This document shows, in pieces, positions 25,885 through 64,000 of a stretch of DNA of 64,000 nucleotides (positions within the stretch are counted from its first letter, which is position 1; each line of letters begins with the position of its first letter). This stretch comes from Ruegeria sp. 6PALISEP08 (GTDB lineage: Bacteria; Pseudomonadota; Alphaproteobacteria; Rhodobacterales; Rhodobacteraceae). The notes under the pieces are model-generated. The model searched no databases and was not told where the DNA came from. It saw only the letters and a program-made list of their open reading frames with translations. The DNA is taken from the NCBI RefSeq assembly GCF_001238295.1, contig NZ_LGXZ01000009.1:62001-126000 (forward strand), given 5' to 3'. The translations under genes were made by a program, and so were the position numbers.

Positions 25885-25912
25885 TACGCGGAACGTTTCC
25901 TATCGCCATATG

Positions 25913-25940
25913 AAAACCGCCCGCATTTACGGGCGGTTTT
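25913..25940. terminator. Bidirectional hairpin terminator after aspS
   Basis: A perfect 11 bp stem (AAAACCGCCCG / CGGGCGGTTTT) with a 6 nt loop. The A/T-rich arms provide a T tract for both the response-regulator transcript and the opposing aspS transcript. Confidence 0.88.
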
Positions 25941-25943
25941 ACA

Positions 25944-27959
25944 TTAGTCCTGAGGAATGATCCGCAGACCAAGCTCCATCAACTGATCCGAGGTCGGATC
26001 AGAGGGTGCATCCATCATCAGATCTTCGGCGCGCTGGTTCATCGGGAACATCATCACTTCGCGAATATTGGCCTCATCCGCCAGCAACATCACGATCCGG
26101 TCAATGCCCGCCGCACACCCACCGTGCGGGGGAGCGCCATAGTGGAAGGCGTTGAACAGAGCGCCAAAGCGGGATTTGACTTCATCCTCGCCATAGCCTG
26201 CCAGTTCAAAGGCTTTCAGCATGATTTCCGGCTTGTGGTTCCGGATCGCGCCCGAAACCAACTCGTACCCGTTACAGGCCAAATCGTACTGGTATCCGCG
26301 CACGTCCAGCGGGTTACCTTGCAGCGCTTCCATACCGCCCTGCGGCATCGAGAACGGGTTGTGCTCAAAATCGATCGCGCCGGTTTCTTCGTCCTGCTCA
26401 TAGATCGGGAAGTCCACGATCCAGGCAAAGGCAAAGCGGTCTTTCTCGGTCAGGTTCAGTTCTTCACCGATCACGTCGCGCGCTTTACCTGCAACCTTTT
26501 CAAAGGCTTTCGGCTTACCACCCAGGAAGAACGCCGCATCGCCGACACCCAGACCCAGTTGCTGACGGATCGCTTCGGTGCGCTCGGGGCCGATGTTCTT
26601 GGCCAGCGGGCCAGCGGCTTCGAACTCACCAAAGTATGCATTCGCTAGAAGTTGGGCCCTACGCCAATTTCCTGCATCCAGCGCTCGCGTAATTTTATCC
26701 TTAACCTCGTCTTCGATTTGGAAAGTGGCATCAATTTCAGCCAAAATTGAGCGACCTATGTCCAAGATTGGACCGACTGCTTCACGAGCCTCTCCGCCAA
26801 CTTTCATCAGAAGCTCGGCGGCATCGTTCAGTTTCTCAACTTTGTCGAGCAAAACATCAGTTGGCTTCTCCGAACGAAGACGCCAGAAGATGTAACCCAT
26901 TCCAGGCAGTCCTTCTTTCTGGGCAAAGGCGTTCATGCGGTCACAGAACTTGCGGCTGCCGCCAGTCGGCGCAGGGATAGCGCGGATTTCGGTGCCTTCC
27001 TGCTCCAGCAGCTTTGCGAAAATCGCAAAGCCAGATCCGCGGAAGTGGTCAGAGACCACTTGCATTTTGATAGGGTTACGCAGGTCGGGCTTGTCGCTGC
27101 CATACCACAGGGCCGCGTCCTTGTAGGAAATTTGCGGCCAGTCCTGATCGACCTTGCGGCCTCCACCGAACTCTTCAAACACGCCGGTCAGAACAGGCTG
27201 GATCGTGTCGAACACGTCCTGCTGCTCGACAAACGACATCTCGAGATCAAGCTGGTAGAAATCGGTGGGCGAACGGTCGGCACGCGGGTCTTCGTCACGA
27301 AAGCATGGCGCAATCTGGAAATACTTGTCGAAGCCCGACACCATGATCAGCTGTTTGAACTGCTGAGGGGCCTGAGGCAGCGCGTAGAACTTGCCCGGAT
27401 GCAGGCGCGAGGGCACCAGGAAATCGCGTGCACCTTCGGGCGAGGACGCAGTGATGATCGGCGTTTGATATTCGCGGAAGCCCTGATCCCACATACGTTT
27501 GCGCATCGAGGACACGACGTCCGAGCGCAGGGTCATGTTCTGCTGCATCGCTTCGCGGCGCAGGTCCAGATAGCGATAGCGCAGGCGGGTTTCTTCAGGG
27601 TATTCCTGATCGCCGAACACCATCAGCGGCAGTTCGTCGGCAGCACCCAGCACTTCCAGTTCACGCACGTAAACTTCGATCTCGCCGGTGGGCAGCTTTG
27701 CGTTCACCAGTTCCGGGTCACGCGCTTTGACGGTGCCGTCGATGCGAATGCACCATTCGGACCGGACTTTTTCCAACTCGGCAAAAGCCGCGCTGTCGCC
27801 GTCGCATAGAACCTGCGTCACACCAAAATGGTCGCGCAGGTCGATGAACAGCACGCCACCGTGATCGCGAACCCGATGCACCCAACCGGACAGGCGGACG
27901 GTTTCACCAACATTGGCGGCGGTCAGAGCGGCGCAGGTGTGGCTGCGGTAGGCGTGCAT
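25944..27959 (-). CDS. aspS: Aspartyl-tRNA synthetase with an ~86-residue insertion in the GAD domain
   Basis: Charges tRNA-Asp (or Asp/Asn if non-discriminating). It has an N-terminal OB anticodon-binding domain ([23 protein letters not shown]), class II motif 2 ([10 protein letters not shown]), the QLDLEMSFV segment, and motif 3 near the C-terminus ([12 protein letters not shown]). At 671 residues it is about 80 longer than usual bacterial AspRS (about 590). The excess is residues 361-446, between GMGYIFWR and [11 protein letters not shown] within the bacterial GAD insertion domain. The reading frame is intact and both flanks are canonical. The insert has lower GC and uses ATA, CTA, CGA and AGG codons rare elsewhere here. 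See the separate entry and finding. Confidence 0.96.
26622..26879 (-). other. In-frame foreign-looking insertion inside aspS
   Basis: These 258 bp encode residues 361-446 of AspRS, a predicted helical, charged segment ([38 protein letters not shown]). By hand count, 26641-26880 is about 49% GC, against about 63% in the adjacent 26581-26640. I see no terminal repeats, intein residues or stop codons. It may be an acquired domain or a captured gene fragment. Confidence 0.7.
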
Positions 27960-28038
27960 GGATCATATCCCTTCGGGCGCAGAATTCGTCGCGCCGATAC
28001 ACCCCGTCAGGCCCGGAAAGTCAAGGCAGGTCGCGCCG

Positions 28039-28710
28039 TCAAAACGGCCTTTGCACATTGCCTGAGTAGAAATAGACACCCAGCCCCACCGCAAAGATGA
28101 TATTGCCCGCAATTGCGTGCAACAGCACCGCATAGAAGAACGAGCCGCGCTGTCGATACGCCCACGTGAACAATAGCCCGCCCGCGAAGGTCATCAGGGC
28201 GACGATCCAGCTCCAGTACATCAGGTGGGCGAACGAAAATACTGCGGCATTTAACAGATAGGCCGCGCGTCTGTTAGGCAGGATCGCGTGATAGCGGCGG
28301 AAGAACAGAGGGCGGAACAGCAGTTCTTGCGGCAGGGCAGACAGCAATGGATAGCCGGCCCAGATGAACGCCAGCATCTCGGGGCGGTGTATTACCAAGA
28401 AAAACGCGGCATCCGGGCGCGTGACGTGTATCAACCCCACGCAGAAGACGGTCATGATGGCGGCAAAAAGTGCCACCTCACGCAGCGACCAGTTGGCCCA
28501 GTCATAACGCAATTCAGCCCACTGAAAGCCTGGTGTCCGGTGCAACAACACTATACCCAACCCAGTCAGGGCAAACAGCGCCGGGAACATCCAGTTGGGT
28601 GGGAAAAGAACGGCGATCAGCAAAGGCAGGCCAACATAGAAAAGGCCAAATTCCAGCCTCAGCCGTGGCAGTGCAACCAGCGGTCCGATCATCGTGCTGT
28701 CTTTGGTCAC
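28039..28710 (-). CDS. CPBP family intramembrane metalloprotease
   Basis: A 223-residue membrane protein with about six to seven helices. Its GTG start overlaps the preceding stop (GTGA), so translation is coupled to the pabC-like gene. CPBP motifs: QELLFR at 128-133, corresponding to EExxxR with Gln for the first Glu; FSFAHLMY with His162; and HAIAGNIIF with His198/Asn203. Members cleave CAAX-like or membrane substrates, but many bacterial ones lack demonstrated activity. The Gln substitution leaves one motif-1 Glu, so activity is uncertain. The link to folate genes is probably only transcriptional. Confidence 0.82.
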   Translation of the reverse strand: MTKDSTMIGPLVALPRLRLEFGLFYVGLPLLIAVLFPPNWMFPALFALTGLGIVLLHRTPGFQWAELRYDWANWSLREVALFAAIMTVFCVGLIHVTRPDAAFFLVIHRPEMLAFIWAGYPLLSALPQELLFRPLFFRRYHAILPNRRAAYLLNAAVFSFAHLMYWSWIVALMTFAGGLLFTWAYRQRGSFFYAVLLHAIAGNIIFAVGLGVYFYSGNVQRPF

Positions 28711-61209: not shown

Positions 61210-62361
61210 CTAGCCCACAAACCGTGCGGCGATGTCACCTGACATATAGCTGACGCGCCCACCGGCCAGGGTTGCCGCGACCCGATGGGTTTCCGCATCC
61301 AGTATGACCAGATCTGCGCGTTTGCCCACGGCCAGCGTGCCCCGGTCTTGCAAGTCCAGCACCCGTGCGGGGCCGGATGAGATCAGCGCCCATGCACTGG
61401 CCAGATCCAGCAAGCCGGTTTTGGTCAGCATCAGCGCCGCACGGCGCGGGCTGGGATAATGGTAATCCGAGGCCAGCGCATCGCAGAGTCCCATGGCAAT
61501 CAGCTCGACTGCACTTGCGTTGCCTTTATGCGATCCACCCCGCACCACATTGGGGGAACCAAGGATGATGTGATCCCCGGCGGAACGCGCGGTCTCAGCA
61601 GCCTCAAGCGTTTCCGGGAACTCGGAAATGCAGATGCCCCGGTCGCGCCACCATGCCCGTGTCTCGGCGGTAGCGTCATCATGGCTGCCCAGACGCACAC
61701 CCATTTCGATGAGTTCAGCGCTAAGTGCTTCGATTGCAACCGGCACCTCGCTCCTGCGGGCGTGCATGTTGAGCAACATCTCAAAATGCGCATCCGGATT
61801 GCGTCCGGCCTTCAACGCCTGCCCGGTCAGGCGCGGCGGTTTCTTGCCCTGTGCCAAACGATCATGTGGCAGGTGATCATTGAAAACCACGTACGGCACC
61901 TGCCAATCGGCGATACGGCGGGCCAGACCGTCGTAGTCCTCGAGCATATTGGTCTCGAACCGCAATTGCGGGATCAGATCGGTGACCGTGCTTTCCTTAA
62001 CGGCAGCAATGGCCTGAAACACCTGCGCGGCAAATTCCGGACCCCGCACACCGCCTTCCCAGCTGTAGAATTGGGCGAGCACCGCGGTGGTAATGCCGTT
62101 TGCAGCAAGCTCGGTTTCGACCGACAGAATACCTTCATTCATCTGCTTCATCGCACCCCGGCGCGGTGCGATATGGCGTTCGAACCCATCCCCATGCAGA
62201 TCGATGATGCCGGGCAGGACAAGATATCCGGTCAGATCAACCCTACGCCCCGCAGACTCTGCCTGTATTGCGCCGTCGGCAATGGTCAGATCAGCGCAGG
62301 ACAAGCCCTCGCCCGACAACAGTACATCTGCGCCGGTCATAGTCAGCTCTAATGAGGTCAT
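61210..62361 (-). CDS. phnM: Alpha-D-ribose 1-methylphosphonate 5-triphosphate diphosphatase PhnM
   Basis: 383 residues from the ATG at 62361; the upstream extension lies in the lipase gene. An amidohydrolase-fold enzyme of the carbon-phosphorus lyase pathway, cleaving diphosphate from the ribose triphosphate intermediate. Motifs: [70 protein letters not shown] and LASDYHYPS. No other phn genes are here, so this copy is detached from a C-P lyase operon. It overlaps the upstream lipase gene by ATGA, which is an odd pairing. Confidence 0.9.
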
Positions 62362-63131
62362 CTTGTGGGCTCCGAGTCCGGCTCCGAGCAATCCTGCCCT
62401 ATACAAATCTCGTCTATTATTTCCATCACACCGTCCAGCCAAGTGATCTGCGGATCGAACTGGCCAAATTCAATGAAATGCAGCACCTGAGCCATTACGC
62501 GCGGGTTGTTCATCATGAAGGTATGGGTCACGGGCAAGACAAGATGATCGGCCATGCCCTCAACCTTGGTGCTTTCGACCGAAACCTTGCCATCATCAGG
62601 CCCGTCGATCAGCGAGGAAAACACGAGGTTCAGGGATTCGTCCCCTGCAATGACCCCCAGTTCGAAATCCACCGGAGGTAGCCGTCGGGGGATACCTTCT
62701 GGGCCTGTACTCAGTTGCAGGCCTGCTGGACCGTTCAGATATCCGAACACCTCCCACGCGCTGAGTTCGTCGACCAGCTGACTGCCTTGATTAGGTGGGC
62801 CCAGCATGACGGCGCGGCCCATGTTGGAAGGGTGATGATCCTTTAACCAATACCGCAGCAGGATGCCGCCCATGGAATGCGCCACAACATTAACTTTATC
62901 TTCTCCGCACGCGGCAAAGGCGTCCGGAAGGGTCTGTTCAGCCAATTCCGGAATGCCAATTTCGGTCGAGGGGTATCCGTGGCGCACAACGGTGTAGCCA
63001 TGTGCCTCGAACAACTCCTCCATCACCGCAAACGAAGCCTCGGTCCGGGCAAGCCCATGCAGCAGCACCACGCATTTCGCGCTGGCGGCAAACGGGAAAA
63101 GGCACAAAAGCAAGGCGGTCAGAAGTCTCAT
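62358..63131 (-). CDS. Secreted alpha/beta hydrolase, lipase-like
   Basis: 257 residues from the ATG at 63131; the long frame to 63431 is rejected. Residues 1-18 form a signal peptide ([16 protein letters not shown]). The fold motifs are LLHGLART at the oxyanion strand, [13 protein letters not shown] with nucleophile Ser86, and a C-terminal [10 protein letters not shown] containing the probable catalytic His. Similar proteins are triacylglycerol lipases or acyltransferases; the substrate is unknown. It is translationally coupled to phnM, so a periplasmic step related to phosphonate or phospholipid use is conceivable but unproven. Confidence 0.84.
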
Positions 63132-63169
63132 AACCGCCAGATAAAGCCTATGAGCCGCTGATGAAAGAC

Positions 63170-64000
63170 CTAGCTCTGTTGACGTCGCAGCACGGCCAGC
63201 GCGATACCGCCCAGAACCAGCGACGCTCCGATGATCAGCCGGACACTCGCGCTTTCGCCCAGCAGCGCGACACCCCCCAGGATCGCGATGACAGGCACGC
63301 TGAGTTGAACCACAGCCGCAACTGTTGGCGCAAGGTTCGGCAGCACGCGGTACCACAGGGCATATCCCAACCCTGAAGTGATGCCCCCCGACACAGCCGC
63401 CAGCAGATATCCAAACCCGGTCATGTGCCACTCTGCTCCAGTGGCCAGTAGGGCCAAAGCTGTAACAGGCAAAGCAATGATGAAATTCGCAGCCGTGCCC
63501 TGCAGGGCGTCAGGCTCGGATCGTCCGGCCAAAGAATAAACGGCCCAACCGATACCGGCAGCGACCATCAAAGCGGTACCCACCGGGTCAACCCGCACCG
63601 TGCCCGAGGGCCACAGCACATAGGCCAGCCCTCCCAATGCGATAGTCGCCCCTGCCAGTTGCTGTCGGGTGGGCAGAGTGCCTGACACAGCGGTAATACC
63701 GAACATTGTGATCTGCACAACGGCAAACAGCACCAGCGCCCCCAACCCCGCATCCAGTGTCATGTAGGCGATGGAAAACCCAATCATATAAACAGAGAGC
63801 GACCCCGCCCCAATGACCCGCCGACGGTTGCGCAAGGGTACATGCCTGCGGCGCGCCAGCACCAACGCAGTCAAGACCAGCGCGCCTGCGAGTACCCGCA
63901 CAATCGCAAACCCGGCCGGATCACTGGCACCACTGTCGATTGCCATCCTGTTAAGGATGGAATTCGCCGCAAATGCGCACATGGTCAGGGCGGTCAGAAA
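63170..64000 (-). CDS. DMT/EamA family transporter (5' end outside window)
   Basis: A membrane protein of the drug/metabolite transporter superfamily. The frame stays open through the right edge (FLTALT before the Met at 63982), so the true start is outside. Two EamA repeats are visible: [24 protein letters not shown] with a following RVLAGALVL helix, and a second set ending [24 protein letters not shown]. About ten TM helices in total. The substrate is unpredictable (amino acids, nucleotides or drugs). The gene ends 38 nt before the lipase gene starts on the same strand. Confidence 0.88.

Follow-up and report, generated by a model that had tools for sequence, protein, structure and literature searches.

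The aspS gene of Ruegeria sp. 6PALISEP08, which lies in the 64,000-nucleotide stretch of DNA analysed here (hereafter the window), carries at one loop of the encoded aspartyl-tRNA synthetase (AspRS) an exchangeable, hypervariable, foreign-like cassette, a description that is well supported by the comparisons set out below. In part of the Rhodobacteraceae such cassettes sit at one fixed site, a hairpin loop of the GAD domain; they are in frame and AT-rich, and the state of the loop has changed many times on the AspRS tree. As the best available explanation we propose, at a probability of roughly 0.4, that the 86 residues of the window enzyme are one allele of an exchangeable hypervariable surface cassette on a non-discriminating AspRS, the variability of which would most likely have come about through recognition by a hostile factor.

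A sequence-only reading of the window had described an AspRS of 671 residues with a surplus of 86 codons in its GAD region, and alignment to same-genus AspRS proteins bears this out (Table 1). The insert is bounded by GYIFWR and the EAAGP block; the loop of relatives reads GYIFWR-DQGEGM-EAAGP, and all 29 same-genus AspRS extracted (L002-L030) have 6 residues, DQGEGM or a variant, at the insert site. The change in the window is 86 codons replacing 6, a net gain of 80, rather than a pure insertion. The remaining protein is an ordinary bacterial AspRS with the same body as other such enzymes bearing a GAD insertion domain, scoring 782.7 bits with NF001750 (cut-off 443) and 573.3 bits with TIGR00459 (cut-off 373.85); it departs from them in having 86 rather than 6 residues in the GAD loop and in a Pfam GAD match (PF02938) that covers no more than residues 442-487 and does not reach its cut-off. 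The GC content of the insert is 0.484 and its GC3 0.442, against 0.590 and 0.711 for the rest of aspS, making it the largest internal GC3 dip among 54 window genes chosen for this test by a simple ORF rule. The foreign-looking low GC noted earlier thus stands, at 48%, but the 63% given for the neighbouring DNA was too high, the rest of aspS being at 59%. Among the uncommon codons that had been pointed out, the insert has one ATA, one CGA and one AGG, all three absent from the rest of aspS, and CTA is present once in the insert and once in the rest of the gene. The second largest dip in the window comprises 80 codons from codon 21 of a gene at 62361-63431 (minus strand) with an alpha/beta hydrolase match (GC3 0.44 versus 0.65). 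The gene upstream of aspS (28039-28710, minus strand) encodes a Rce1-like (CPBP) membrane protease (Pfam PF02517), a match to which adjoins aspS in 28 of the 29 insert-free same-genus loci, partially in two.

Table 1. Features of the window aspS gene (positions in the window; L002 is the nearest insert-free relative of this gene)
Feature	Position	Strand	Basis
aspS, aspartyl-tRNA synthetase with insert, 671 aa	25944..27959	-	ORF; NF001750 and TIGR00459 over cut-off; Pfam tRNA-synt_2 and OB domain
Variable cassette, residues 361-446, replacing the 6-residue loop of relatives	26622..26879	-	alignment; GC3 0.44 versus 0.71; predicted helical
Last 25 residues of the cassette, motif I..AL..G...RA.FL..AYFG.. 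common to most long inserts; two predicted helices and a short turn	26622..26696	-	alignments, position counts, fragment model
Upstream AspRS part, conserved, residues 1-360; possible left arm for homologous recombination	26880..27959	-	nucleotide identity 0.93 to L002
Downstream AspRS part, conserved, from EAAGP; possible right arm for homologous recombination	25944..26621	-	nucleotide identity 0.90 to L002

With one genome sampled per species, the window insert is missing from all 36 same-genus genomes first searched, each of which gives two matches that skip it, and the sole end-to-end AspRS alignment in that search is from the window's own genome. A wider genus search (54 genomes, own included) recovered from G062 one more AspRS with an 86-residue insert, encoded by an aspS that does not differ from the one in Ruegeria atlantica HKCCD6218. 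Identity between this insert and that of the window is 27%, against 98-99% in the protein on either side. Family profile searches over one set of 394 genomes matched 7 genomes with a two-row profile and 32 with a six-row profile, and AspRS inserts were confirmed in 22 of these 32. Eight other loci matched by the six-row profile (L060, L061, L063, L064 and L066-L069) are without an insert-bearing AspRS, with L060, L063, L064, L066 and L067 proving on re-reading to be other genes or chance frames, and the remaining two matches were without a locus; one genus match (L033) and two family matches (L038 and L039) were checked and are unrelated. A profile scan of named genomes recovered 18 loci, every one an AspRS with an insert at the same site, from Sedimentitalea, Loktanella, Cognatishimia, Rhodovulum, Litoreibacter, Phycocomes, Alterinioella, Lutimaribacter, Paracoccus and Fuscovulum among other sources, several of the loci belonging to genomes already met in the family searches. 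Outside the order, Ancylobacter radicis (Hyphomicrobiales) has an AspRS, 60% identical to that of the window, with an insert (L086). A relative of this Ancylobacter insert occurs in a Loktanella MAG from the rumen (38% over 87 residues). A class-wide profile search of 385 genomes matched nine, the window's own and eight at E-values of 0.0066-0.031, these eight being profile scores only, from a profile built on AYFG-type rows that may miss other types. When plasmids were searched with the whole AspRS, 98 records matched, and the best 15 of the 98 span about 1760-1780 bases, which fits an AspRS without a long insert. The idea of a one-off capture does not survive these comparisons, given the related or unrelated AT-rich modules at the same loop in many Rhodobacteraceae genera.

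An insert-free query of 180 residues spanning the loop, the split matches of which are found independently of the insert sequence, matched 240 of 248 family genomes in a sample of about one Rhodobacteraceae genome per genus. At least two matches were obtained in 62 of these, and 60 were counted as split at the loop, the other two (G209 and G234) having a full-span match as well. Of the 60, 28 genomes show a conserved loop of 31-32 residues and 31 a long insert, 37-94 residues in length; the long inserts of G195 and G258 lie on cut contigs. The last of the 60, G105, is a contig fragment whose loop has 8 residues. In a class-wide sample outside the family, two matches at the loop were seen in 4 of 272 matching genomes (G060, G489, G599 and G643), the last three being match counts alone. 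In the first, an alphaproteobacterium (L172), the loop is occupied by a low-complexity SGSGRDS repeat. With 60 of 240 genomes split inside the family versus 4 of 272 outside it, the loop is an insertion hot spot mainly in Rhodobacteraceae. These observations bear on an explanation in which the inserts are tolerated filler, the GAD loop accepting nearly anything helical, with AT-rich DNA entering by recombination, kept in frame by selection against damage and later lost. The free size of the long loops, the low-complexity loop of G060 and the presence of the same neighbouring genes with and without an insert within the window's genus are in keeping with it, but tolerance alone does not explain the difference between the family and its surroundings, and we regard this explanation as unlikely.

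The composition seen in the window recurs across the genera. All 50 distinct long inserts are lower in GC3 than their own flanks (mean 0.483 versus 0.815), and 47 of the 50 lie below every flank window of the same length; as a profile supplied part of the 50, the AYFG type may be over-represented in this set. The 31-residue loops, by comparison, are host-like, at 0.695 versus 0.745, with one of 28 below all windows. An insert of normal composition in most related AspRS, named in the sequence-only reading as the sign of an ancestral domain, is not what is observed across the Rhodobacteraceae AspRS aligned. There is a weak upward trend of insert GC3 with that of the host (slope 0.34, r 0.38), suggesting that some inserts have been resident in their hosts for a while. 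The second loop type, of 31-32 residues, is conserved as well as host-like in composition and reads EKTADAVAQELG..., KQSADSIAQEQG... and variants; it was found at 28 loci between L127 and L166 in EKTADAVAQELGITVKEAQAKLKSGEVEGGM-like and KQSADSIAQEQG-like versions, has no significant Pfam match and is also scattered on the AspRS tree.

To follow the loop against the enzyme we used a tree of 132 AspRS bodies with the loop removed, four of 136 rows (L034, L164, L171 and L098) having been dropped for short flanks; 51 of its 129 inner branches are open, that is weak, and 20 are starred. Several lines of evidence show the inserts to be uncoupled from the protein around them: 1) The three loop states (short, 31-residue and long) are interleaved on the tree, with 31 changes needed against a shuffled mean of 59.2; for long inserts versus the rest 18 changes are needed (shuffled mean 39.5), at least 6 of them forced by starred branches. 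2) The window AspRS adjoins the insert-free L002, and that of R. atlantica adjoins the insert-free L019. 3) In a Mantel comparison over the 1225 pairs of long inserts, with the last 12 residues left out, insert and flank similarity are correlated at r 0.018, 638 of 2000 permutations being as high; the control with 31-residue loops gave r 0.288, with 18 of 2000 as high. 4) The ten closest insert pairs, led by L075 and L081 at 73%, have flank identities of 0.64-0.86 versus an average of 0.81 over all pairs. 5) Twelve of the 37 cherries of the tree join two long inserts, and in none of the 12 are the inserts related beyond their last 12 residues, against related loops in all five control cherries of the 31-residue type; most cherries span different genera, so that the term sister is to be taken in a relative sense. 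Compared as wholes, the inserts of 4 of the 12 sister pairs are related at E < 0.01, which we put down to the shared C-terminus. Within the window's genus, most neighbouring genes do not differ between loci with and without an insert, and no linked partner gene specific to inserts was seen in the neighbour comparison, in which the flanks were short for most loci. In one assembly (G258) there are two aspS pieces (L179 and L180, on contigs C24 and C38), one of which carries an insert of 89 residues and the other a short loop. On the two sides of the loop they are 93.5% identical in DNA over 278 bases and 95.7% over 163 bases, and they represent either two mixed strains or a second gene copy. Together these results support the conclusion that the modules sort independently of the surrounding enzyme. 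They also weigh on the explanation that the insert is an ancestral domain of the Rhodobacteraceae AspRS that evolves very fast and has been lost repeatedly. One type of C-terminal motif in 33 of the 50 inserts, long inserts in many of the rows nearest the outgroup and the related insert in the Ancylobacter AspRS would all be expected of such a domain, and part of the counter-evidence could be blurred if the domain changed very fast where it stands; nevertheless, the foreign-like composition of all 50, their uncoupling from the flanks and the sisters without related inserts render it quite improbable.

At the protein level, the motif that recurs in 33 of the 50 long inserts is a RAxFLxxAYFG-like sequence at the C-terminus, directly before the EAAGP block, and the parts N-terminal to it vary freely in length and sequence; the window insert belongs to this AYFG type, as defined in this analysis. 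The non-AYFG long inserts seem by eye to group by SKYM-like ends or an HFP motif (L141, L151 and L160; L158, L167 and L169). The inserts of L158 and L167, and those of L167 and L169, are related by blastp. Such groups suggest that several modules use the same loop. Eight related insert pairs gave dN of 0.23-0.56 by the Nei-Gojobori method, with dS saturated in six and omega of 0.19 and 0.15 in the other two, dS of this size being rough; the related pairs thus look constrained as proteins. Both the shared motif and this apparent constraint argue against mere filler. The inserts are acidic (mean net charge -5.4; -5 in the window) and contain less proline and more Glu, Ala and Leu than their flanks. 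An AlphaFold fragment model of the window insert (pLDDT 78, pTM 0.47) is helical, mostly one long helix, with helices at 6-68 and 72-83; its C-terminal region is the most confident, the blocks of residues 51-80 having mean pLDDT values of 85, 96 and 93. Sequence and models hence agree with the earlier description of an in-frame, charged module predicted to be helical. The full-length model, which places the insert between two strands, is poor (mean pLDDT 52, pTM 0.31), and we do not take it to show where the insert stands with respect to tRNA or GatCAB. We infer from these features that the C-terminal helix may be docked and the variable part exposed.

Searches for a source of the insert, for signs of mobility or for a known domain gave nothing convincing. 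No second copy was found in the window's genome by protein (E <= 1), and by DNA there were only 15-17 base matches at E of 1 or more; the site (26560-26960) shows neither direct nor inverted repeats, the RNA fold is nothing special (z -0.43) and 25900-28100 has no Rfam match at gathering score. Inteins have an N-terminal Cys or Ser and a C-terminal His-Asn before Cys, Ser or Thr; the window insert starts with Leu-Arg and ends with Glu-Phe before Glu, so that its ends are not intein-like. A self-mobile in-frame element (palindromic element, intein relic or intron), though it would account for the intact frame, the foreign composition and the fixed site, is largely refuted by the single copy, the fold, repeat and Rfam results and these ends, and we give it hardly any credence. 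Phage records and viral contigs yielded no donor of the insert, and a single-sequence search with the insert gave no match in genome contigs and viral contigs, the former null reflecting a limit of sensitivity, since a profile later found relatives there. Of the proposals in the sequence-only reading, a mobile in-frame element is thus left unsupported by the single copy, the lack of repeats and the negative phage and viral searches; free-standing copies, which it had suggested looking for, were found in none of the searches made. Its proposal of a captured known domain fares no better, there being no convincing Pfam, PHROG, PADLOC or PDB relative: the insert family (23 members) gave only single-member matches to Pfam, PHROGs and PADLOC, at E of 0.0038 or worse, the best E in a PDB profile search of the insert was 0.64, and Foldseek gave nothing at E <= 0.001. 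The structure prediction it had recommended is helical, and the HMM and fold searches offer no convincing relative among known domains. A PADLOC match to Specificity_I (E 0.0088) involves one member of the 23, the window insert itself, and such a weak match is read as chance; fold matches of the insert-only model, which is mostly one long helix, are not meaningful. No paper on such AspRS inserts was recognised in literature searches.

The gene content of the host gives this enzyme a particular context. AsnRS (TIGR00457) is found over cut-off in none of the 20 genomes searched, and the matches below cut-off sit in AspRS, apart from a single weak one in G311. GatB, the one GatCAB subunit looked for, was found in the window's genome, which was the genome covered by that search. 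In bacteria without AsnRS, according to passages of PMC4206432, a non-discriminating AspRS serves both tRNAAsp and tRNAAsn. Given the lack of AsnRS and the presence of GatB, the window AspRS should therefore make both Asp-tRNAAsp and Asp-tRNAAsn, and by gene content should be non-discriminating. A factor hitting such an AspRS would hit two amino acids at once. The same context could also favour an accessory domain with a positive role for the host, one that tunes AspRS by way of tRNA affinity, the GatCAB transamidosome or a species-specific partner, and that differs as the partners differ. The signs of constraint within insert families, the docking-like conserved C-terminus and the conserved 31-32 residue loop of host-like composition at the same site are further points for such a role; but near-identical enzyme bodies without an insert or with unrelated ones, the AT-rich composition of all 50 inserts and the missing correlation with the remaining enzyme fit it badly, making it somewhat unlikely in our estimate. 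Nevertheless, we regard both this host role and tolerated filler as serious rivals of the reading that we prefer.

The preferred reading, an exchangeable surface cassette shaped by hostile recognition, would work as follows. The simplest route for the exchange would be homologous recombination through the conserved aspS flanks, the cassettes possibly being carried by the gene transfer agents of Rhodobacterales, by transformation or by phage. The conserved C-terminal helix would dock the cassette to AspRS and leave the variable acidic helices exposed; a factor encoded by a phage or competitor would act on this face of AspRS, and cells would escape or neutralise it by altering the AspRS surface. 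We favour a hostile factor because of the turnover of the inserts, their AT-rich make-up and their restriction to one loop, and genetic conflict is probably the driver of their variability. In its fullest form, the loop would be an antigen-like cassette site, where dissimilar helical modules are exchanged from an AT-rich pool under attack on this AspRS face by a factor of a phage or competitor, a version that we put forward tentatively, with less than even odds; if it is true, the inserts are an allelic defence in the translation machinery and their pool is a record of the attacker. Against the conflict step it counts that we know of no attacker, partner or phenotype for the AspRS cassette, that phage records and viral contigs hold no donor and that the cassette is missing in most relatives. 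Further, omega below 1 within families signals constraint and not diversifying selection, so that the case for conflict as the driver comes from the turnover.

Comparable arrangements are known in part. Rickettsia palindromic elements are short foreign-looking in-frame inserts tolerated by conserved alphaproteobacterial genes, and the window insert is likewise short, foreign-looking and in frame in such a gene; unlike them it is single-copy and non-palindromic, has counterparts of many dissimilar sequences and occupies one site of one gene, as judged by the GC3-dip scan within the window. Aminoacyl-tRNA synthetases have lineage-specific insertions and appended domains, which are normally stable within a lineage; the AspRS inserts resemble these as extra modules inside an otherwise conserved synthetase, but differ in that the modules of sister AspRS have no detectable relation beyond the last 12 residues. 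Type I restriction specificity subunits, whose hypervariable specificity regions are exchanged by recombination, share with the AspRS inserts a variable module between conserved flanks, low GC and allele-like turnover, but here the carrier is an essential translation enzyme.

Housekeeping synthetases are usually regarded as slowly evolving, and the divergence of the window and R. atlantica modules between their near-identical flanks is a case of fast loop turnover in this slow class of enzymes. This calls for caution in the use of aspS as a phylogenetic marker. It seems that small protein modules come and go at the aspS loop time and again, and replace one another there. If conflict is indeed behind this, these bacteria have in AspRS a target that has gone unrecognised, and the cassettes offer a direct route to the attacker; if it is not, nature has still provided 50 cases of a module inserted into an essential enzyme.
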